From Bacteroidota bacterium (GTDB lineage Bacteria; Bacteroidota; Bacteroidia; Bacteroidales; UBA4417): DNA of 64,000 nucleotides. A program made the position numbers and the translations under genes. Within the stretch, counting starts at the first letter, position 1; each line of letters begins with the position of its first letter. Below are positions 3,107-22,736 of this stretch, in pieces. The notes beneath the pieces were generated by a model, which worked only from the letters and a program-made list of their open reading frames with translations, had not been told where the DNA came from and made no database searches. The stretch is taken from contig JACAAZ010000007.1 of the NCBI GenBank assembly GCA_013376995.1, positions 1 to 64,000 on the forward strand, written 5' to 3'.

Positions 3107-6100
3107 CTATTGAAGAGAAAGTTTTTTTACAAACTTATAGTTTGAGTACCGTATCTCCACAAAATAATATCCTTTAGAGAATTTGGATAAATCTAACTGG
3201 AACTTATTTGTAGCATTAATTGCGTTATTTGCTAGCATTTTACCGGATTCATCAAATACTGTAGTAGTTACCCCATCAACCTGTTCAGTGCCTAGTTCAA
3301 CATTAAAGATGCCTGAAGATGGATTAGGGTAAACCAATGGATCATTTATTATTGAATTGATGGATAGGTTTTTGTTTTGTACGCCATCGGCCATAATTTT
3401 ATTAATTCCAACTTCTTTAGTATCAGAAATAAGGCTTTTTTCGCCAACAGATCCAATTATTGTGGATGCCCCATTTCCATCAGTAAGTTCAATAACATCT
3501 TTTAAAGCAACAACGATGTTTGCCTGGCTCCCTAAAGGGGAAAAGTAATTGTCAACAACCCTTATTCCCAAAGTAAAACTGGGAGTTGTCTCATAATCTA
3601 GCGCAAGGACATTGGCTACGGTAAGCGCTCCAGTCGCACCATTAATCGCAAATGCTCCATTGGTATTGCCAGAGAGTATTGAATAGGTCAGTGTTTGACC
3701 CACATCAGGATCTGTAGCTACAACATTTCCAACAGCAGTTCCATTTGGAGAGTTTTCATTGATTGAGAAACTTTGATCACTAATTATAGGTGCTTCATTC
3801 ACATTAATCAGATTCACAATGATAGCACCCTGGTTAGTCAGATTACCTGTTCCATTGTCCTGAACTTTAATAGTAAGCGCAATGGTAAGTATTACCTCGT
3901 AATTCAATGCAGCTGAGTTTGCAACAGAAAGTACTCCAGTTGTTGAGTTGATAGAAAAAGCTCCTCCTGTATTCCCTGCTAAAATGCTGTAAGTCAAAGA
4001 TTGGCCTGCATCCGGATCGCTAGCCAATACTGTGCCTACAATTGTAGAATTAGGAGTGTTTTCATTGATGTTAAAATATTGTGTTGCTATTACCGGCGGT
4101 TCATTGAGATTAATCAGATTAACAGTAATTGTAGCTTGAGAACTTAAACTGCTGGTGGCATTATCCTGAACCTTAACTACCAGCGAAAAGGAAGGCGTAA
4201 CTTCAAAATTCAAAGCTGTTGAATTTGCTACTGTTAGCAATCCGGTTGTTGAATTTAGGGTAAATGTTCCATTCGTATTTCCTGAAAGAATGCTGTAGGT
4301 CAAAGTCTGACCGGCATCAGGATCCGAAGCTAAAACAGTCCCCACATTTGTACCATTAACAGAGTTTTCATTAACCGAGAATGTTTGATTGGCGATTACC
4401 GGGGCATGGTTACTTTGTGTCACATTGATTGTTATTGCTGCACTGGAGAATAGGTTTCCTGTACCATTATCCGTGACTTTCACAGTCAGGTTGAATACAG
4501 GATTGATCAGGTAATTTATTGCTGTTGAGTTATTCACAGTGATAAGCCCGGTTGCAGTGTTTATTGTAAAAGAAGTGCTGACATTCCCTGCTGTTATGGC
4601 ATAAGTTAGTGTTTGTCCGGCATCGGGATCAGAAGCTATGACTGTTCCAACCGGAGCGTTGTTGGCTGATCCGGTTGCAATGCTAAAGGTCTGATTAGCA
4701 ATGATCGGGGGCTCATTTACATTGGATAGCAGTACGCTTACAGTAGCCTGAGTGCTCAGTGGGCTTGTACCATTGTCCTGTGCATTAACAATGAGGGAAA
4801 AGGATGGAGTAGTTTCAAAGTTGAGAGCGGCAGAATTAGCTACTGTCAGTAACCCGGTAGATGAGTTAATGGCAAATGCATTATTGGTGTTTCCTGAGAG
4901 TATTGTAAAAGTAAGAGCCTGGCCTGCATCCGGATCAGTTGCCGCTACAGTACCTAAATTAGTTCCGCTGGCTGTGTTCTCAGCAATTGTGAACGACTGA
5001 TTATTTATAACAGGAGGTTCATTAACATCAGTCAAATTGACCGTAATTGAAGCTTGGTTTGAGAGAGTGCCAGTGCCATTATCCTGTACCTTGATAACAA
5101 GCAAGAAAACGGGTGACACTTCATAGTTTAAAGCGGTAGAATTAATAACTGTAATCAATCCAGAAGTTGCATTTATAGAGAAAGCTCCATTTGTATTTCC
5201 TGAAAGGATGGAATAAGTCAATGATTGTCCGGCATCGGGATCATTAGCGACTACCGTTCCGACCGAAGTACTGTTGGTGGTATTTTCAGCTATGCTGAAA
5301 CTCTGGTTTGCGATTACCGGCGGCTCATTTACGTTGATGAGGTTTACAGTCATATTCGCCTGCGATATTAAACTTGGACTGCCATTATCCAGAACTTTGA
5401 CCGTTAAAGAAAAAGTTGGAATGAATTCAAAATTTAATGCCGCGTAGTTTAAAACTGTTAATGCTCCAGTGACAGAATTAACAGCAAAAGCTCCATTAAT
5501 ATTGCCCGATACCAGCACATAGGTCAATACCGATCCCGCATCAGGATCAGAAGCCACAATAGTACCTACAACTGTGCCATTGCCTGAATTTTCGGCTACT
5601 GAAAAGGATTGATTTGCTAGAATCGGGGCTTCATTAACATTGGTTAAGCCAATGGCAACTGTCGCTTGGTTTGATAGTGCCGTAGTTCCGTTGTCCTGTA
5701 CTTTTATTACTAAGCTGAAACTAGGTGTTGATTCAAAATTTAGTACTGTGCTGTTGCTTACTGTTATGTTGCCGTTAGAGGAGTTTATCGCAAAGGCACC
5801 ATTTGTATTACCGGATAGTATGGAATATGTTAATGCTTGTCCGGCATCGGGGTCTGTAGCTACTACGGTTCCTACAGAAGTTCCGTTGGCAGTGTTTTCA
5901 GCAAGTGTAAATGACTGGTTGGAAATTACAGGAGCTTCATTCACGTTTATCAGGTTCACTACAACTGTTGCCTGGCTGCTCAGTGGACTCGTTCCGTTAT
6001 CTGTAACTTTAATGATCATTGTAAAAACCGGAGTAACTTCAAAGTTCAAGCCATTTGGGTTATTTACAGTTAAAACACCGGTTGCAGGATTCATTATAAA

Positions 6101-9100
6101 TGTTCCGTAAAGATTACCTGAAACAAAGGAGTAAACAAGAGATTGTCCTGCGTCAGGATCACTGGCAATGATGTTTCCAACTACAGTACCATAGATGGAA
6201 TTCTCGTTGATGGAAAATGTTTGATTGGCAATTAAAGGAGCTTCATTGACATTGAGGAGATTAACCGTTATTGTCGCTTGAGAACTCATAGTCATTGGAC
6301 CATTATCCTGCACTTTTACTATCAATGAAAAGGTGGGAAGCACTTCATAATTGATTGCCTGGGTATTTGAAACACTCAGCACTCCGGTAGCAGCATTAAG
6401 ACTAAAGGCATTGTTGGTATTACCTGAAAGAATAGAGTAGCTTAACGACTGACCTGCGTCGGGATCAGTGGCGATTATTGTTCCTACAGTCGTGCCATTT
6501 GGGGAATTCTCATTAATGGCAAAAGTCTGGTTGCTAATAACAGGCGCGTTGTTGCTTTGCAATACATTTATGGTAACAGTAGCATTAGAAAACAGATTAC
6601 CGGTACCATTGTCAGTAACTTTAACTGTAAGGTTAAATATTGGATTTGATTGATAGCTTATTGAGGTGGAAGATGAAATGGTTAATGCACCAGTGGAACT
6701 GTTGATGGCAAATGCTGAACCTGTATTCCCTGTAGTTATGCTATAGGTTAAAGTTTGACCGGCATCAGGATCGGAAGCAACTACAATCCCAACTTGTGTT
6801 CCATTGGCAGCTCCGGAAAGGGCACTGAATGATTGATTTGCAATTACAGGGGTTTCATTAACATCAGTAAGCATTACGCTTATGGTCGCCTGGCTGGATA
6901 AATTACCTGTACCATTATCCTGAGCATTTACAATCAAGGAGAAAATGGGGTTTACTTCAAAATTCAGGACTGAAGTGTTTGCAACCGTTAATGCCCCGGT
7001 TGTGGAGCTTAGGGTAAATGCACCTCCGGTATTACCTGATTGAATTGAATATGTCAGCGTTTGACCGGCGTCAGGGTCGCTTGCAACGACTGTCCCAACC
7101 AAAGTGCCGTTAATACTATTTTCGGCAATCGAAAAACTCTGATTTGCAAGCACTGGTGGTTCATTAAGGTTGATCAAGTTTATTGTTACAATGGCCTGGT
7201 TGTACATAACAGGGTTTCCATTGTCAATAGCTTTGACAGTCAGGCTAAAAGTTGGGAGAAGTTCAAAATTTACAGCAGAAGAATTAAGGACAGTAAGGAC
7301 TCCTGTGGTTGTATTAAGTGAAAAAGCGCCGTTAACATTTCCGGAAACTAAAATGTAACTCAGGGATTGCCCCGCATCAGGATCTGAAGCTACAACAGTT
7401 CCAACTACTGTCCCATTGGAAGAATTCTCATTCAGGGTAAAGGATTGGTTGTTGATAACAGGAGCATGATTGGGACTCTGAGTAATATTCACAGTAATTA
7501 CAGCACTACTTGTCAAATTGCCAGTGCCATTATCGGTTACTTGAACTGTTAAGCCAAATACCGGAGTTGTTAGATAGTTTACAACTGAAGTATTGACTAG
7601 GGTTATCAATCCTGTAATACTATTGATTGAAAAAGCTGTATTTGTATTTCCTGAGGTTATTGCGTAGCTTAGGATTTGTCCTGCATCCGGATCAGTAGCT
7701 ATGACTGTCCCAACCGAAGTTCCATTTGCAGAGCCTGAGATAACGCTGAATGTTTGATTATTGACTACAGGCGGCTCATTAACATTTCCAAGGGATATTG
7801 TCATAGTTGCCTGAGCACTGAGTGGACTGGAGTAATTATCCTGAGCTTTTACTACAAGATTAAATGTAGGCGTTGTTTCAAAATTAAGCGCAGTAGAATT
7901 TGATACCGTTATTAATCCTGATGAAGCATTAATACTGAACGCATTGTTACTGTTCCCCGAAAGAATGGAATACGACAGGGATTGACCTGCATCCGGATCT
8001 GAAGCTACAACTGTTCCTACGGAAGTTCCGTTTGCAGAATTCTCATTTATGCTGAATGACTGGTTAGCTAAAATAGGAACTTCATTTACATTTATCAGGT
8101 TAATTGTAATGGTTGCTTGAGTACTCATGCTTGGACTTCCATTGTCCTGCACATATACTACTAAGGGAAAGGCTGGTATTGCTTCAAAATTTAAAGCTGC
8201 GCTGTTGTTAACTGTAAGTTGACCTGTTGTAGAATTGACCGAGAACGCGTTGTTCACGTTTCCTGAAAATATGCTAAATGTAAGTGATTGCCCAACATTC
8301 GGATCTGAAGCCACAAGTGTTCCAACGATAGTTCCATTTGCACTGTTTTCATTGATTTGAAATAGTTGGTTTCCCATAACTGGTGCCTGGTTGGTGCTTC
8401 CACTTGTTGATGAATACTCAAACGCTCCGAGGTCAGGGGCGGTTCCATTATAAGGAAGTCCCACATTTGTACCAGCATCAATCAAATCCGAATTTGACAC
8501 AAGATGCATGAAATTGAGAACCGGTAGAGATCCATCTGCTTGTCTCATACCGTCCATCCCAATTGATGAAGTTGAGGCAAAATCAGAACTGTTTACAGTA
8601 TAAGCAGTATTAGGACTACCACTAAGGAGGAATGAATTATGATCCACTATTGACTGTGCTGTGAAAATCGGAATATTCGCATCATTAAGAGAAATATTAT
8701 TCCTCATAATGTTAGCTGTTGTCCCTGTAAAGAAATCGAAACCTCGGCCTGTCTTATTGTTGTAACTAACACTATTATATATGGCAATTACACAAAGAGC
8801 TAGATTTTGATTAAAACCCCGGACCCTGTTTTCAAAAGAAAGGCAATTATTTAATGTTCTCTTAATCAAGCTGCTGGCAGCTGTCTCACCAAATTTAAAT
8901 CCATTGCCATCACCACCCGTTGTTATCCCATCTTCTTTATATCCATTCCAAAATGACCAACAATTATCAAAATTTATCGTCCCGTCACTCATCCAGCAGT
9001 CATATCCATCATCAGCATTTGACCATGAACGACAACCTTTAATGAGGTTTGGTGCACCTGTTATTGAAGCACCGTTTAAGCTTGATATTTCAAGCCCGTC

Positions 9101-9805
9101 TCCATCTCCATAAGGTGTAACACTATAAGGGTCATAATTATTATGAAAATCACAATTCAGCAATAAGTTGCCTTGCGAGTCATGAGCAAGGCCCATACCA
9201 TGACTATTGTGGTGACTGTTCAAATTTTCGAAAATGCAGAAATTAACATAATCAGCAAATATTCCTCTCCATAGGTTAGTGTTTCCAACTGGTTGAGTGA
9301 ACCCAGTTATTTCAATTCCTTTAAAATGGATATAATTGACATAATTTAGATAGATTCCAGATGGGACACCAGTATATGAATAAGTTGAGCCTTTGGTTAA
9401 TATTGGAACTTCTCCCGGAAATGCCCAGATTTTTATCAGATTTCCGGCAACCCCACTTTTATTCCGCAAATCTTGCATAACAGTGTATTGGTAGGTTCCT
9501 CCTCTTAAATAAACGGTATCTCCCGCAGAAAGATATGTCCATACTTTATTCAGGGTAAACCATGGAGATTGAATAGTGCCGGAATTGCCATCATTTCCAG
9601 CAGGTACAGCCGTACTGGGCGCCAGGTAATATTTTGTGGCGGAGGCTTCCGTAGTTATAAAGAATAAACTGAATAGCAGAAATACAAAAAATAATAAAGA
9701 AAAATCACCTGTCTTCTTTATTAGCGATTTCAGTAAGTTTATTCGGGATGGAGTAGGACTTGCAACACTACTGTATAGTGATAAATTTGTAATCTTAGTC
9801 TTCAT
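3107..9805 (-). CDS. Secreted PL9-like beta-helix protein with 16 cadherin-like repeats and T9SS sorting domain
   Basis: This 2232-residue exported protein has a long basic N-terminus, a hydrophobic signal core (about 35-53), a right-handed parallel beta-helix domain (about 57-465), 16 cadherin-like repeats of ~102 residues (about 472-2104) and a C-terminal T9SS type A sorting domain (about 2155-2232, starting VYPNPSSGIF). The helix domain carries GDGDG (D234/D236), NADDGYD (D265, D266, D269) and GNGFKFG (K304). The DDxxD spacing and the lysine ~35 residues later agree with the calcium site and catalytic lysine known for polysaccharide lyase family 9 (Dickeya Pel9A). It is therefore probably a cell-surface or released pectate-lyase-like enzyme on a calcium-stiffened stalk. 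Enzyme activity is inferred; an adhesin with a sugar-binding helix is the alternative. Confidence 0.92.
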   Translation of the reverse strand: MKTKITNLSLYSSVASPTPSRINLLKSLIKKTGDFSLLFFVFLLFSLFFITTEASATKYYLAPSTAVPAGNDGNSGTIQSPWFTLNKVWTYLSAGDTVYLRGGTYQYTVMQDLRNKSGVAGNLIKIWAFPGEVPILTKGSTYSYTGVPSGIYLNYVNYIHFKGIEITGFTQPVGNTNLWRGIFADYVNFCIFENLNSHHNSHGMGLAHDSQGNLLLNCDFHNNYDPYSVTPYGDGDGLEISSLNGASITGAPNLIKGCRSWSNADDGYDCWMSDGTINFDNCWSFWNGYKEDGITTGGDGNGFKFGETAASSLIKRTLNNCLSFENRVRGFNQNLALCVIAIYNSVSYNNKTGRGFDFFTGTTANIMRNNISLNDANIPIFTAQSIVDHNSFLLSGSPNTAYTVNSSDFASTSSIGMDGMRQADGSLPVLNFMHLVSNSDLIDAGTNVGLPYNGTAPDLGAFEYSSTSGSTNQAPVMGNQLFQINENSANGTIVGTLVASDPNVGQSLTFSIFSGNVNNAFSVNSTTGQLTVNNSAALNFEAIPAFPLVVYVQDNGSPSMSTQATITINLINVNEVPILANQSFSINENSANGTSVGTVVASDPDAGQSLSYSILSGNSNNAFSINASSGLITVSNSTALNFETTPTFNLVVKAQDNYSSPLSAQATMTISLGNVNEPPVVNNQTFSVISGSANGTSVGTVIATDPDAGQILSYAITSGNTNTAFSINSITGLITLVNTSVVNYLTTPVFGLTVQVTDNGTGNLTSSAVITVNITQSPNHAPVINNQSFTLNENSSNGTVVGTVVASDPDAGQSLSYILVSGNVNGAFSLNTTTGVLTVLNSSAVNFELLPTFSLTVKAIDNGNPVMYNQAIVTINLINLNEPPVLANQSFSIAENSINGTLVGTVVASDPDAGQTLTYSIQSGNTGGAFTLSSTTGALTVANTSVLNFEVNPIFSLIVNAQDNGTGNLSSQATISVMLTDVNETPVIANQSFSALSGAANGTQVGIVVASDPDAGQTLTYSITTGNTGSAFAINSSTGALTISSSTSISYQSNPIFNLTVKVTDNGTGNLFSNATVTINVLQSNNAPVISNQTFAINENSPNGTTVGTIIATDPDAGQSLSYSILSGNTNNAFSLNAATGVLSVSNTQAINYEVLPTFSLIVKVQDNGPMTMSSQATITVNLLNVNEAPLIANQTFSINENSIYGTVVGNIIASDPDAGQSLVYSFVSGNLYGTFIMNPATGVLTVNNPNGLNFEVTPVFTMIIKVTDNGTSPLSSQATVVVNLINVNEAPVISNQSFTLAENTANGTSVGTVVATDPDAGQALTYSILSGNTNGAFAINSSNGNITVSNSTVLNFESTPSFSLVIKVQDNGTTALSNQATVAIGLTNVNEAPILANQSFSVAENSGNGTVVGTIVASDPDAGSVLTYVLVSGNINGAFAVNSVTGALTVLNYAALNFEFIPTFSLTVKVLDNGSPSLISQANMTVNLINVNEPPVIANQSFSIAENTTNSTSVGTVVANDPDAGQSLTYSILSGNTNGAFSINATSGLITVINSTALNYEVSPVFLLVIKVQDNGTGTLSNQASITVNLTDVNEPPVINNQSFTIAENTASGTNLGTVAATDPDAGQALTFTILSGNTNNAFAINSSTGLLTVANSAALNFETTPSFSLIVNAQDNGTSPLSTQATVSVLLSNVNEPPIIANQTFSIATGSANNAPVGTVIASDPDAGQTLTYAITAGNVSTSFTINTATGLITVNNSTAINYLINPVFNLTVKVTDNGTGNLFSSAAITINVTQSNHAPVIANQTFSVNENSVNGTNVGTVLASDPDAGQTLTYSILSGNTNGTFTLNSTTGLLTVANSTALNFEVTPSFSLVVKVQDNATSSLSSQATITVNLINLNEPPVIATQYFNINENTPNSTIVGTVLASDPDAGQSLTYSILAGNTGGAFSINSTTGVLSVANSAALNYEVILTIALTIKVQDNGTGNLTNQGAIIVNLINVNEAPIISDQSFSINENSPNGTAVGNVVATDPDVGQTLTYSILSGNTNGAFAINGATGALTVANVLALDYETTPSFTLGIRVVDNYFSPLGSQANIVVALKDVIELTDGNGASTIIGSVGEKSLISDTKEVGINKIMADGVQNKNLSINSIINDPLVYPNPSSGIFNVELGTEQVDGVTTTVFDESGKMLANNAINATNKFQLDLSKFSKGYYFVEIRYSNYKFVKKLSLQ
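3494..8392 (-). repeat. Array of 16 cadherin-like repeats (~306 bp each)
   Basis: Sixteen in-frame units each carry a form of NQxFxxxENSxNGTxVGTVVASDPDAGQ, a SGNTNxAF turn, LNFExxPxF, VxDNGT and a VNExP linker. Thirteen units have the E-N-S/T form. Units 3, 6 and 13 instead have SGSANGT-like words and NYLxxP or YQSNP in place of NFE, and are followed by N(H/N)APV. The DNA copies have diverged, so this is an old amplification, not recent slippage. Confidence 0.9.
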
Positions 9806-16859: not shown

Positions 16860-17582
16860 TCAGCTCTGGGAATTTAAGGTGATATTTCGTATATTTTTAT
16901 TATAACAGGATTCTATTGCTTTTATGGTTAGAGGTTTTCCATGTGCAGGGAAAAAACTTCCGGCTCCGGTATCAAGTAAGATTTTCCAGCTTTGAATCAT
17001 CAATCCTTTATCCTGGGCATAGGGCGGCATTACAGATGCCGGGAAAACCCCGAAGAGTGCATCGCCGGCTAGCACAATGTCATCATCAATCACAATACTT
17101 ACCGAACCTTGTGAATGCCCCGGTGTTGGCAGTATATACCCTTTAAAGCCGAATTTCGAAAGGTCAAGCCTGGTTTTAAAAGTTTGATTGGCTTCACAAG
17201 GCTCAAATTTCATCAGCGATCCTACCTTGTTGCCAAAGTTTCGGATAAGGAACCTGGTTAGAAGCATAGTTCCACCAGGTACTGGTGTTTGTCCATTTTG
17301 AAGGTAGCCGGCTTCATCGCTGTGTATGAGAACAGGTGTATGAAATCGGTTCTGAATATAATGAGCGTTACCGGCATGATCGAAATGAGAATGTGTAAGA
17401 ATAAGTGCATCCAAATGACTGACCCCAAGCTTGGCAAGGCTCCATAAGAGTTGTCGCCTGTATCGTTTTGTTCCGCTGTCGACCAGCAGATTATTCCTGC
17501 CATTGGTTACAAGAAATGCATTCGATCGAAATCTTAATACCCTGAAAATGGTGTATCCCGATGAGGTTGTCCAGTGTTTCAT
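16860..17582 (-). CDS. MBL-fold metallo-hydrolase
   Basis: A 240-residue metallo-beta-lactamase fold protein with the dinuclear metal motif THSHFDHAGN, the third histidine in PTPGHSQGS, the bridging aspartate in VLAGDALFG and the final histidine in FFPAHGKPL. Such proteins hydrolyse thioesters, lactones or related bonds; the substrate cannot be assigned. It heads the minus-strand run of three hydrolase or unknown genes, but the next gene has its own promoter box. Confidence 0.87.
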   Translation of the reverse strand: MKHWTTSSGYTIFRVLRFRSNAFLVTNGRNNLLVDSGTKRYRRQLLWSLAKLGVSHLDALILTHSHFDHAGNAHYIQNRFHTPVLIHSDEAGYLQNGQTPVPGGTMLLTRFLIRNFGNKVGSLMKFEPCEANQTFKTRLDLSKFGFKGYILPTPGHSQGSVSIVIDDDIVLAGDALFGVFPASVMPPYAQDKGLMIQSWKILLDTGAGSFFPAHGKPLTIKAIESCYNKNIRNITLNSQS

Positions 17583-19081: not shown

Positions 19082-19774
19082 CTAACCGAATTTTTCCAGG
19101 GTCTGGAGTAGAGATTTATTAAGGATCCGGATAGTCTTTCCTTTTATCTCAATAATCCCATCCCGCCTGAACTCTGAGAAGACACGTATCACATTTTCGG
19201 TTGTCATCCCTATCAGTTCGCCTATTTCCTTGCGTGAAACCGGTAGATCAAATTCATCCTTCTTGTAGATATCTTCCGAAAATTCATGCAGTATAAAGGC
19301 GATCCTTCCTCGAATGTTTTTCCTGCTGATATCAAAGGCATTGTTGATGATAGTATCAGCAGCACGGCTTATCCTTCCGAGAAGGCGAATGCCAAAATTC
19401 CCGTTTTTCCTGAGAATATGATGTACGGCAGTCAGTTCGATATAGTAAATGAGTGAGTCTTCCAGCGCGGCTATTGAATACTGGTGTTGATGATTGGAAA
19501 AGACGCTGAGCAGGCCAACACAATCATTGGGTTTGGCTATGCTGATGATCTGGCCCCTGGATTCATGATCTTGTTTGAAAACCTTCAGCAAACCTTTCTT
19601 CAGGAAAGATATATAGCGTATCTCGTCTCCCTGGAGGAAAACGATTTCACCTTTTCTGAATGATCTGTAGGAAGTATAATTGACAAGAAATTCAAGCTCC
19701 TCTTCCGAGAGGCCCTCGAATAGCTCAGAGCTGTATACGCAGCTTCTGCAGGATTCTAAAACGTCAGTTACCAC
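19082..19774 (-). CDS. Crp/Fnr family transcriptional regulator next to the sulfur operon
   Basis: A 230-residue regulator with a cyclic-nucleotide-binding fold (about 20-140; GEIVFLQGDEIRYISFLKKG) and a C-terminal winged helix with the recognition helix in SRKEIGELIGMTTENVIRVF. The N-terminus has CRSC (cysteines 9 and 12), which could sense redox or metal, but the four-cysteine pattern of E. coli FNR is not seen. It is divergent from the SQR operon. The shared 141-bp region contains a perfect TGTGA-N6-TCACA palindrome, which suggests that it controls that operon and perhaps itself. The ligand is unknown. Confidence 0.9.
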   Translation of the reverse strand: MVTDVLESCRSCVYSSELFEGLSEEELEFLVNYTSYRSFRKGEIVFLQGDEIRYISFLKKGLLKVFKQDHESRGQIISIAKPNDCVGLLSVFSNHQHQYSIAALEDSLIYYIELTAVHHILRKNGNFGIRLLGRISRAADTIINNAFDISRKNIRGRIAFILHEFSEDIYKKDEFDLPVSRKEIGELIGMTTENVIRVFSEFRRDGIIEIKGKTIRILNKSLLQTLEKFG

Positions 19775-19827
19775 GGGGGATTAGAATTGGCTGCTAAAGT
19801 AGAGGAAAATATCAAAACATGATAAAT

Positions 19828-19845
19828 ATCATATTTAAATATGAT
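19828..19845. promoter_or_regulatory. 18-bp perfect AT-rich palindrome in the sulfur-operon control region
   Basis: ATCATATTTAAATATGAT is its own reverse complement. It lies 26 bp upstream of the Crp-type palindrome and closer to the regulator gene, so it could be a second operator, possibly for autoregulation. Confidence 0.45.
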
Positions 19846-19865
19846 TGGAATCAGCTATTCAGGAA

Positions 19866-19873
19866 TACATTTG
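19866..19873 (+). promoter_or_regulatory. Possible -7 box of the SQR operon
   Basis: TACATTTG fits TAnnTTTG and lies 42 bp before the ATG at 19916. Its last three bases overlap the Crp-type palindrome, so binding there could block or modulate this promoter. Confidence 0.4.
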
Positions 19874-19888
19874 TGAATCGATTCACAA
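19871..19888. promoter_or_regulatory. Perfect Crp-type operator (TTGTGAATCGATTCACAA)
   Basis: The 18-bp palindrome contains TGTGA-N6-TCACA, the known consensus for Crp-family dimers. It lies 27 bp before the SQR start and 96 bp from the start of the divergent Crp/Fnr gene. Binding by that regulator is inferred from position and fit. Confidence 0.65.
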
Positions 19889-19915
19889 TAAATTCATGAA
19901 TCTAAATAAGTGTAG

Positions 19916-21148
19916 ATGAAAAAGCTTTTAATTCTTGGAGCAGGAACCGGTGGCACCATCATGGCAAACAAACTCAGTAAGGATCTTTCACGTGATGAGT
20001 GGGATATTACCATAATCGATCAGTTCAAGACCCATTATTACCAGCCGGGTTTTCTCTTCATTCCCTTCGGATTTTACTCAGAAGCGGATGTGGTCAAACC
20101 AAAAAATAATTTTATTCCTGTTGGAGTCAACTTCAAAATTGCTGAGATCGATCGTATTGATGGGGCAGCAAACAAAGTCTATCTCACAGACGGAGAGGTA
20201 CTTGATTATCATATCCTGATCATTGCAACCGGAACTAAAATCCTGCCTGAAGAAACCCCGGGAATGAAGGGTGAGTTGTGGCACAAAAAGGTTTTCGACT
20301 TCTACACTATTGATGGGGCAAAGGCGCTTGCCAAGTTCTTCAAGACCTGGGAAGGAGGCAACCTCGTGCTGAATATTGCTGAAATGCCCATCAAGTGCCC
20401 GGTTGCTCCATTAGAGTTTGTGTTTTATGCTGATTCCTTCTTCATGGAAAGAGGAATGAGGAATAAAGTGAATATAACCTATGCCACCCCCCTGTCAGGA
20501 GCCTTTACCAAACCCCGGGCTTCGAAGGTGCTTGGGAATATGCTCCTTGAAAAAAACATCAACATAGTACCTGACTTTGCGCTTATGGAAGTGGATAATG
20601 AACAGCAGCTGATTCGCGATTACAGCGGGAAAGAGGTTCCCTTTGACCTTCTCGTTACTATCCCTTTGCATGGTGGTGACCCGATGATAGGCAGGAGTGG
20701 ATTGGGTGATGACCTGAATTTTGTTCCTGTAAACAAGCACACCTTGCAGAGCAACCAGTTTGAAAATGTCTTCGTGATAGGAGATGCCGGTAGTTTCCCA
20801 ACTTCTAAAGCCGGTTCAGTAGTTCATTTCCAATCTGATGTCCTCTTCGAAAACCTGATGTGCTATATTGAAGGCAGGCCTTTCACAGCCAGTTTCGACG
20901 GTCACTCGAATTGTTATATCGAAACCGGCCATGGTAAAGGAGCCCTGATTGATTTTAACTATGATACTGAGCCTCTTCCAGGCCATTTCCCTTTTCCAGG
21001 CCTCGGCCCGTTTAACCTTCTGAAGGAATCCCGCATGAATCATTATGGAAAACTGATTTTCCGCTGGATTTACTGGCATATCCTGCTTAAAGGGAAGGAA
21101 ATGCCAATCGATGCAAAAATGACTATGGCAGGCAAAAAGCTGGAATAG
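19916..21148 (+). CDS. sqr: Sulfide:quinone oxidoreductase-like FAD protein
   Basis: A 410-residue flavoprotein that probably oxidises sulfide or another sulfur species and passes electrons to quinone. It has an N-terminal FAD motif (ILGAGTGGT, 7-14), LIIATGTKILPEE, the second FAD site VFVIGDAGSFPTSKAG and a C-terminal amphipathic/aromatic tail likely to touch the membrane (FRWIYWHILLKG). Cysteine 161 in MPIKCPVAPLE and cysteine 333 in HSNCYIETGHGKGALIDF align by context with the two essential redox cysteines of SQR (human Cys201 and Cys379). A third cysteine near residue 128, found in some bacterial SQRs, is absent. It is first of four closely spaced genes. Confidence 0.85.
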   Translation: MKKLLILGAGTGGTIMANKLSKDLSRDEWDITIIDQFKTHYYQPGFLFIPFGFYSEADVVKPKNNFIPVGVNFKIAEIDRIDGAANKVYLTDGEVLDYHILIIATGTKILPEETPGMKGELWHKKVFDFYTIDGAKALAKFFKTWEGGNLVLNIAEMPIKCPVAPLEFVFYADSFFMERGMRNKVNITYATPLSGAFTKPRASKVLGNMLLEKNINIVPDFALMEVDNEQQLIRDYSGKEVPFDLLVTIPLHGGDPMIGRSGLGDDLNFVPVNKHTLQSNQFENVFVIGDAGSFPTSKAGSVVHFQSDVLFENLMCYIEGRPFTASFDGHSNCYIETGHGKGALIDFNYDTEPLPGHFPFPGLGPFNLLKESRMNHYGKLIFRWIYWHILLKGKEMPIDAKMTMAGKKLE

Positions 21149-21184
21149 CATATTCAAACCTGAGTAAAGACATACACAATTGAA

Positions 21185-21871
21185 ATGGAAGATATTAGTA
21201 TTCAAAGCCAGATTGATGCCATTAACCGCAAACTCGATTTCATCCTGGAAGAGATCATGGCCCAGAAACAATCGAGGGAAAGCCGTGAGGACCTGATCTC
21301 TGACCTTTCTGTAATCGGCAAGGATGCATTCAGCCATACAGTGAGCCAGCTTGATAAAGCTGGAGTTGAGTTTGATGGCGAAGTGCTTGCAGGATTGCTA
21401 GTTAAACTTATCCGTAACCTTGGTAACATAAATGAACTGATGGATACTTTCGAGAGTGTTCATGACCTGATTAAGAATGTCACACCCATTGCTCACCAGG
21501 TCGGACTCGACGCCATCAATAAAATGGCTGAATTTGAAAGGAAAGGCTACCTCGATTTTATAAGGGAACTGGGCAGGGTAGGGGAAAACATCACAACGCA
21601 TTTTTCACCAGCTGACGCAAGAGACCTGGCTGATAACATCGTCAATATACTTGAGACAGTCAAGCGGGTTACTAAGCCTGATATGCTGGTAGCCGTTAAC
21701 AATGCCATTGCAGTATATGGAAGCCTGGACATGCAAAATATTGAGGAATTTTCATTGTGGAAAGCTTTCCGTGAAATGCGTTCTCCCGAAATGCGCAAGG
21801 GCATGGGATTTATGGTTAATTTCCTGAAGAATCTTGTAAAACAACAGGAACTAAGACAAAAACGACAATAA
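21185..21871 (+). CDS. DUF1641 family protein
   Basis: A 228-residue mostly helical protein with a coiled-coil-like N-terminus (IQSQIDAINRKLDFILEEI). The DUF1641 core lies near the C-terminus, where FREMRSPEMRKGMGFMVNFL is typical. The family often sits beside SQR-like or formate dehydrogenase genes and has no settled biochemical role. Here it starts 36 bp after sqr and is followed at 28 bp by the DsrC/TusE-like gene, so it is probably an accessory part of the sulfur enzyme unit. No signal peptide or membrane span. Confidence 0.82.
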   Translation: MEDISIQSQIDAINRKLDFILEEIMAQKQSRESREDLISDLSVIGKDAFSHTVSQLDKAGVEFDGEVLAGLLVKLIRNLGNINELMDTFESVHDLIKNVTPIAHQVGLDAINKMAEFERKGYLDFIRELGRVGENITTHFSPADARDLADNIVNILETVKRVTKPDMLVAVNNAIAVYGSLDMQNIEEFSLWKAFREMRSPEMRKGMGFMVNFLKNLVKQQELRQKRQ

Positions 21872-21899
21872 ATATTCATTCATCTTAACAGTACAAATT

Positions 21900-22211
21900 A
21901 TGGCACAGAAAACCTATGCAGGCGTGACCGTCGATGTAAATGAAGAAGGTTACTTTACTAATCCTGCTCAATGGACAAAAGAAATAGCGGCTGAAATAGC
22001 CAAAGAGGAAGGTGTGGTGCTTACCGACAAACACATGGCCATGCTTGATTACCTGCGTGATCGCGTATCCAAGGGAGAGGTTCTCACCATCAGGGGTGTT
22101 GGTAAATCAGGGATAGTAGATATAAAAGGATTTTATGAGATGTTCCCGGGGGCTCCCATGAAAAAAGCCACAAAGATTGCAGGCATCCCCAAGCCAGCCA
22201 GCTGCATTTAA
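21900..22211 (+). CDS. DsrC/TusE family sulfur-carrier protein with only the terminal cysteine
   Basis: A 103-residue protein of the DsrC/TusE/DsvC family. VTVDVNEEGYFTNPAQWTKE matches the usual N-terminus and KIAGIPKPASCI the flexible C-terminal arm. The penultimate cysteine (102, CysA) that carries persulfide sulfur is present. The residue eleven positions before it, where true DsrC proteins have CysB, is threonine 91, so this is a one-cysteine, TusE-like form. It lies between DUF1641 and a DsrE-type gene. A role in passing sulfane sulfur from the SQR-like enzyme or the DsrE protein is inferred. No dsrAB or tusBCD genes are visible. Confidence 0.88.
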   Translation: MAQKTYAGVTVDVNEEGYFTNPAQWTKEIAAEIAKEEGVVLTDKHMAMLDYLRDRVSKGEVLTIRGVGKSGIVDIKGFYEMFPGAPMKKATKIAGIPKPASCI

Positions 22212-22235
22212 TTCCAACCTTTGAAAAATACTAAT

Positions 22236-22736
22236 ATGAGCGAAGAAAAATATCCTTTGAAAAAAGTATGTATCATCTGTGCCAAAGGCACGATAGAAGA
22301 TGTTTACGCAACCCTTGTCATGGGTAATGGAGCCGTTATGGAAGGCATAGAGACCAAAATCTTCTTTACCTTTTTCGGGCTGGATGCCATAACCAAAAAG
22401 CAGATGATGAAGCTGCATACCGGCACAGTCGGGAATCCTGCCATGCGCATGCCTGGCGGACTGCCTTTCCCTTCCATCCTCGGAATGTTGCCGGGAGTGG
22501 AATTGGGTGTTTCAGCAATGATGAAAGGCCAGATGGAGGCACTTGACATCCCGAAAGTGGATGAATTCCTCGAAATGATCACAGCAGGGGGAGGGGAGAT
22601 CTATGCTTGTAAACTTGCCATGGATATGTTCAAGCTGAAAAAGGAAGATCTCTGGGAAGGCGTCCTCGGTGTTCTCACTGTCGGTGAATTCTATGAAAAG
22701 TGCGACGGCCAGCAGACCCAGATCATTTTTACATGA
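22236..22736 (+). CDS. DsrE/DsrF/DrsH-like family protein (DsrE2 type)
   Basis: A 166-residue protein of the DsrE2-type sulfurtransferase family. It begins KVCIICAKGTIEDVYATLVM and has KIFFTFFGLDAI, a Met/Gly-rich middle and the conserved cysteine in EIYACKLAMDMFKL (Cys125), the expected persulfide site. Other cysteines are 12, 15 and 156. An in-frame TTG lies 5 codons upstream, but the ATG fits better. It is the last gene of the sulfur unit and converges with the tolC-like gene, 13 bp apart. Role inferred: acceptor or donor of sulfane sulfur with the DsrC-like protein. Confidence 0.87.
   Translation: MSEEKYPLKKVCIICAKGTIEDVYATLVMGNGAVMEGIETKIFFTFFGLDAITKKQMMKLHTGTVGNPAMRMPGGLPFPSILGMLPGVELGVSAMMKGQMEALDIPKVDEFLEMITAGGGEIYACKLAMDMFKLKKEDLWEGVLGVLTVGEFYEKCDGQQTQIIFT

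Follow-up and report, generated by a model that had tools for sequence, protein, structure and literature searches.

A conserved four-gene cassette of Bacteroidota, predicted to oxidise sulfide, combines a type III sulfide:quinone reductase with DUF1641, a one-cysteine DsrC and DsrE2

A stretch of 64,000 nucleotides from a Bacteroidota bacterium of the order Bacteroidales (assembly GCA_013376995.1, contig JACAAZ010000007.1, positions 1 to 64,000; hereafter the window) carries an operon with the order sulfide:quinone reductase (SQR), DUF1641, one-cysteine DsrC and DsrE2, with a divergent Crp/Fnr gene ahead. The families are known ones, in a combination that we did not find described in the open-licence literature searched, and they form a real, conserved cassette with a predicted function in sulfide oxidation. 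The mechanism that we favour, with modest confidence, is an Fnr-controlled sulfide oxidation in which SQR would reduce menaquinone by way of a DUF1641 adaptor, while the sulfane sulfur would move to DsrE2 and from there to DsrC. What we infer here, namely all reactions, the direction of transfer and the role of DUF1641, builds on the gene content, the cysteine conservation, the co-inheritance, the homology of DUF1641 to ForE1 and a conserved FNR-type box. The five genes are all open frames with the boundaries given in Table 1, as in the preliminary description of the locus, and the spacing of 24–36 bp reported there for the four co-directed genes agrees with the gaps of 36 (SQR/DUF1641), 28 (DUF1641/DsrC) and 24 bp (DsrC/DsrE2).

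Table 1. Features of the cassette and its upstream region (positions in the window)
Feature	Position	Strand	Basis and remarks
Crp/Fnr-family regulator, divergent	19082..19774	-	cNMP_binding and HTH_Crp_2 matches; Cys9, Cys12, Cys85; Tyr110
FNR-type palindrome TGATAAATATCA	19820..19831		kept in relatives
Likely Bacteroidota promoter TTG-N18-TACATTTG	19845..19873	+	sequence; Bacteroidota consensus
Perfect palindrome TTGTGAATCGATTCACAA, overlaps promoter	19871..19888		not kept in relatives
Predicted type III sulfide:quinone reductase (SQR)	19916..21148	+	NF049943; Cys161, Cys333
DUF1641, all-helical, no Cys	21185..21871	+	PF07849; C-terminal half homologous to ForE1
One-cysteine DsrC/TusE-family protein	21900..22211	+	TIGR03342, PF04358; Cys102 penultimate
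DsrE2-type protein	22236..22736	+	PF13686; invariant Cys125 (Cys130 from TTG start); Cys15

An SQR-only scan of 84,980 species genomes gave 80 loci, to which searches of relatives added more. The co-occurrence of the genes was checked in the 67 informative loci, that is, those with at least 1.8 kb of sequence downstream of SQR. DsrC and DsrE2 follow SQR in all 67, and DUF1641 lies between SQR and DsrC in 56 and is absent from 11. The four-gene co-conservation supposed in the preliminary description thus holds, and the gene order, kept in all informative loci, is far beyond chance. Among Bacteroidales, DsrC occurs in all 26 genomes with the window-type SQR versus 14 of 123 without it (Fisher p=3e-19; 149 relatives), counts that are not independent events since some of these genomes are close kin. 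Over-cut-off SQR was found in 96 of 396 sampled Bacteroidota genomes, Chlorobium-like ones included, and this share of nearly a quarter is the reason why the cassette matters. In the Chlorobium-like genomes only SQR is present within the 1.5 kb read; outside that group, the over-cut-off SQR is almost always accompanied by DsrC and DsrE2. Neither SQR nor DsrC was found in any of 15 congeners, which implies a gain of the unit in this species or its loss in the congeners. As a separate observation, the actinobacterium Raineyella antarctica has a three-gene form, SQR-DsrC-DsrE2, which was probably acquired by transfer. Among cultured carriers, Draconibacterium has the four-gene and Gramella/Christiangramia the three-gene form.

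We now turn to the individual proteins. The flavoprotein scores 641 bits against NCBIfam NF049943 (cut-off 525), and its closest solved match is human SQOR, to whose catalytic cysteines Cys201 and Cys379 the window residues Cys161 and Cys333 align. Both are kept in all relatives that cover the respective position (100/100 for Cys161 and 97/97 for Cys333). Family score and invariant cysteines together bear out the earlier label of an SQR-like flavoenzyme, and the protein is predicted to be a type III SQR with both redox cysteines. NF049943 is listed as 'type III sulfide quinone reductase, selenoprotein subtype', with the motif HxxU (2026 review, PMC13188914). In the window, HSNC333 stands at the HxxU (Sec) position and there is no in-frame TGA, so that the protein is the cysteine form of the type III family; at this position, some family members rely on selenium to carry out the same step. 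Selenocysteine in the Bacteroidota members was considered and rejected, since none of the over-cut-off matches among the genomes searched has an in-frame stop. The C-terminal membrane-type region of SQR is kept both with and without DUF1641, which speaks against the adaptor role proposed below for DUF1641.

The DsrC protein matches TIGR03342 with 69.3 bits (cut-off 53.5) and PF04358 with 83 bits (cut-off 24.9). Its description as a one-cysteine form was correct: Cys102, the penultimate residue, is its single cysteine and is kept in 90/90 relatives. At the place of the second C-terminal cysteine of DsrAB-type DsrC the window protein has a threonine, and the family alignment has a single cysteine column. 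It is this second cysteine that is needed for the trisulfide used by DsrAB. The DsrE2 protein belongs to the broader family PF13686 (96.2 bits, cut-off 25) and lies below the cut-off of the DsrE2 equivalog NF047629 (96 bits, cut-off 210). Its Cys125 is kept in 83/83 relatives and Cys15 in most of them, and the ATG at 22236 suits the relatives better as start than the TTG at 22221 of the longer frame. In A. vinosum, DsrEFH hands sulfur to the penultimate DsrC cysteine only, and the one-cysteine form of DsrC is typically found where a genome lacks DsrAB (PMC3397948). All 15 DsrC copies read that are not tied to SQR are of the two-cysteine kind. A side observation is a two-cysteine, DsrAB-type DsrC in 13 Bacteroidales genomes without the window-type SQR (L162–L176; second copy in G113 and G143), which suggests a dissimilatory sulfur metabolism there.

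The DUF1641 protein matches PF07849 with 34.4 bits (gathering cut-off 21). A 50-member profile of it, compared with the PDB, finds ForE1 of B. subtilis (8rqz, E=2.5e-6), the match spanning the C-terminal half of the window protein only. ForE1 serves to link the formate dehydrogenase of B. subtilis with menaquinone; both the formate:menadione activity and menaquinone binding need it (PMC8808070). DUF1641 therefore most likely links SQR to menaquinone, as we infer, in the manner of an adaptor; its part in the pathway, called still unknown in the preliminary description, has now a lead in this homology to a menaquinone-coupling subunit. In Bacillus, the gene of YjlC, a protein annotated as DUF1641, lies next to that of the NDH-2 YjlD, itself a sequence relative of the window SQR; the PDB includes what is by its title a YjlC-YjlD model, to which the fold match is weak and non-significant (Foldseek). 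DUF1641 is also found in a Huc-type hydrogenase operon (PMC12976888) and paired with an FAD oxidoreductase in Ignicoccus (PMC3149612). The AlphaFold model of the window protein shows two helices of 56 residues each and a helical domain at the C-terminus; its pTM is 0.36 and its N-terminal helices are poorly predicted, and a Foldseek search with this low-pTM model gave no match at E<=0.001, ForE1 included. A HucM-like stalk was another option considered, and this assignment was not reached: the DUF1641 profile does not match HucM (PMC10017518) at E<=10, and the Foldseek matches are non-significant.

On the SQR tree (midpoint root), DUF1641 appears ancestral in the group, is absent from 28 of the 118 cassette members and was lost at least twice. 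It is present in 18 of 55 SQR-bearing genomes, beside SQR in all 18 and nowhere else in them. Its loss in some clades means that SQR can do without it, and DUF1641 is an add-on that is not obligatory for the sulfur relay. The same losses would also fit a role of DUF1641 as merely an assembly or stability factor for SQR, an explanation that competes with the adaptor step alone and agrees with the ca 50-fold fall in benzyl-viologen activity of ForC1 without ForE1. However, the loss of ForE1 also abolishes menaquinone and menadione activity (both PMC8808070), and DUF1641 is repeatedly found with enzymes that are quinone-linked or use flavin (formate dehydrogenase, NDH-2, the Huc-type hydrogenase operon, archaeal flavoproteins), so that we consider the stability role possible and on balance doubtful. 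About equally tentative is a wider proposal, in which DUF1641 would be a general menaquinone adaptor of bacteria and archaea (for SQR, NDH-2, formate dehydrogenase and Huc-type hydrogenase) and would in Bacteroidota join SQR to a dedicated relay of one-cysteine DsrC and DsrE2, giving a sulfide respiration from which sulfur leaves as protein persulfide and never via DsrAB, TusA or free polysulfide. The cassette allows a direct test of DUF1641 as a shared device that gives soluble or monotopic redox enzymes the use of menaquinone.

In the mechanism that we favour, the cassette would be under Fnr-type control. SQR would oxidise sulfide at the FAD using Cys161 and Cys333 and reduce menaquinone, and DUF1641 would bind to SQR and, as an adaptor of the ForE/YjlC kind, help it to find menaquinone at the membrane or to retain it. 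The sulfane sulfur would remain on SQR, most likely at Cys333, from where Cys125 of DsrE2 would take it and then give it to Cys102 of DsrC. The sulfur would thus stay on proteins of the cytoplasm and not be set free as polysulfide. It is important to point out that SQR may face the periplasm, a view found in PMC13293266, which would block a direct transfer to the cytoplasmic DsrE2. From DsrC the sulfur would pass to an acceptor other than DsrAB, since both the DsrAB enzyme and the second DsrC cysteine are absent; genome-wide searches with the DsrA, TusA and PF02635 profiles gave no acceptor. Regarding the short path from sulfide to protein-bound sulfane sulfur suggested earlier, its relay parts (DsrE2, and DsrC without DsrAB) are present, while its endpoint may lie further on, as DsrC has no second cysteine and the acceptor would come beyond it.

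The link to Crp made previously stands as far as the family of the regulator is concerned. Its type is Fnr and not Crp, because the conserved DNA site, TGATAnnTATCA, is FNR-type. Of the 72 loci with the regulator, 49 have TGATnnnnATCA sites ahead of SQR, versus 0.9 expected from a simple shuffle, and the window has its own copy of the box (Table 1). The signal sensed by the regulator may be oxygen, NO or sulfane sulfur. All relatives keep its Cys9 and Cys12. The four cysteines for the [4Fe-4S] cluster of FNR are not all present: the window protein has these two and no further N-terminal cysteine, and carries Tyr110 where 66 of 67 relatives have a cysteine (the FNR Cys122 position). A cluster ligand may have been lost in this way, with the FNR-type site retained. 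The perfect palindrome TTGTGAATCGATTCACAA was considered as a site of Crp-type control and rejected as a conserved one, the consensus scan having matched the window alone; this palindrome covers the likely promoter. The predicted promoter itself presumably fits the Bacteroidota consensus.

Several known systems resemble the cassette in part. Haloarchaeal plasmids carry TusA-SQR-DUF1641, in which SQR has 34% identity and the same two cysteines and DUF1641 follows directly, and Haloarcula hispanica adds DsrE2-TusA, a rhodanese-MBL protein and YeeE genes, its DsrE2 (31% identity) adjoining SQR-DUF1641. Unlike in the window, the carrier there is TusA instead of DsrC, and the rhodanese-MBL protein of H. 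hispanica is weakly related to the Blh sulfur dioxygenase. The pathway of cable bacteria, type III SQR - YeeE - TusA - DsrEFH type II - DsrC - DsrAB (PMC13293266), shares the type III SQR, a DsrE-family transferase and DsrC as the last carrier, whereas the window has one operon with DUF1641 and a one-cysteine DsrC, in a genome without TusA, the DsrEFH trimer and DsrA. ForCE of Bacillus subtilis (ForE being DUF1641) is likewise an operon of a redox enzyme and a homologous DUF1641 partner; its catalytic subunit is, however, a molybdoenzyme, and its partner matches the C-terminal half only. YjlC-YjlD pairs DUF1641 with an SQR-related flavoenzyme that uses NADH in place of sulfide. In A. vinosum, a DsrE-type cysteine gives sulfur to the penultimate DsrC cysteine, as we propose here, but from a DsrEFH heterohexamer and to a two-cysteine DsrC that feeds DsrAB (PMC3397948).

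The source genome, with a completeness of 97%, encodes one over-cut-off SQR, one DUF1641 and one DsrC. Whole-genome searches gave no TusA, PF02635 (TusBCD/DsrEFH family) or DsrA, which excludes the classical Dsr and Tus routes; the rDsr pathway was rejected on the absence of DsrA and of the second DsrC cysteine. The preliminary description, which saw no dsrAB, tusBCD, TusA or rhodanese genes beside the unit, is right for the window. For rhodaneses it does not extend to the genome, which has five, all on other contigs than the cassette. Contig C13 (about 63.2–69.5 kb; L161:7203–13505) carries PsrABC, two YeeE/YedE and two rhodaneses with a hydrophobic N-terminal stretch and a GGC end; its PsrA matches the T. 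thermophilus enzyme 2vpw with E=1.8e-202. Of 80 loci, 24 have genes of this island next to the SQR unit, and the reading of the unit as 'compact' is thus incomplete. PsrA was found in 5 of 18 DUF1641-positive genomes tested. An obligatory PsrABC partnership was rejected on such counts, and the island often accompanies the unit without being required, because most sampled SQR genomes are without PsrA.

This island speaks for a scheme running in the opposite direction, in which YeeE and the rhodaneses import sulfane sulfur, DsrE2 and DsrC bring it to the flavoprotein and, with the periplasmic PsrABC, sulfur or polysulfide serves as electron acceptor, the flavoprotein being mainly a reductase or redox-switched. 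The FNR-type box upstream of SQR is also consistent with it. However, the low PsrA count shows that the unit does not need PsrA, and running SQR backwards from menaquinol is energetically unfavourable under standard conditions, which makes the scheme distinctly improbable. Somewhat less improbable, and still unlikely, is that the cassette serves detoxification or buffering: SQR would lower sulfide, DsrE2 and DsrC would store or report excess sulfane sulfur, the exit would be as polysulfide, and there would be no energy pathway past SQR. The genome has no downstream sulfur-oxidising enzyme among DsrA, TusA and PF02635, and the unit is patchy, as seen in the 15 congeners. On the other hand, many bacteria detoxify sulfide with SQR alone or with an added persulfide dioxygenase, and two carriers strictly kept beside SQR are more than a simple SQR needs.

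We have also considered tRNA 2-thiouridylation, with DsrE2 and DsrC acting like TusBCD-TusE and feeding MnmA with sulfur from SQR. DsrC is a one-cysteine protein, as is TusE, but it scores only 53.3 bits against the TusE equivalog NF008562 (cut-off 191), and the genome has no TusA. Moreover, 109 of the 123 relatives without the window-type SQR have no DsrC, so that DsrC goes with SQR rather than with a core function. Thiolation as the main role was rejected on the family score and the DsrC distribution, and we regard it as very improbable indeed. The cassette allows a direct test of what a one-cysteine DsrC does outside tRNA thiolation and DsrAB.

Finally, some observations were made beside the main subject. 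The MBL protein at 16860–17582 was considered as a persulfide dioxygenase and rejected, NCBIfam giving no support. The minus strand of the window has a 2232-aa open frame at 3107–9805. Near the Psr island lie genes for a fusion of cytochrome b with a multihaem (ExtM-like) part (L161:362–3061) and for a Rieske protein (L161:6336–6764), and L023 and Draconibacterium loci likewise have cytochrome b-multihaem and Rieske genes close to the SQR unit.
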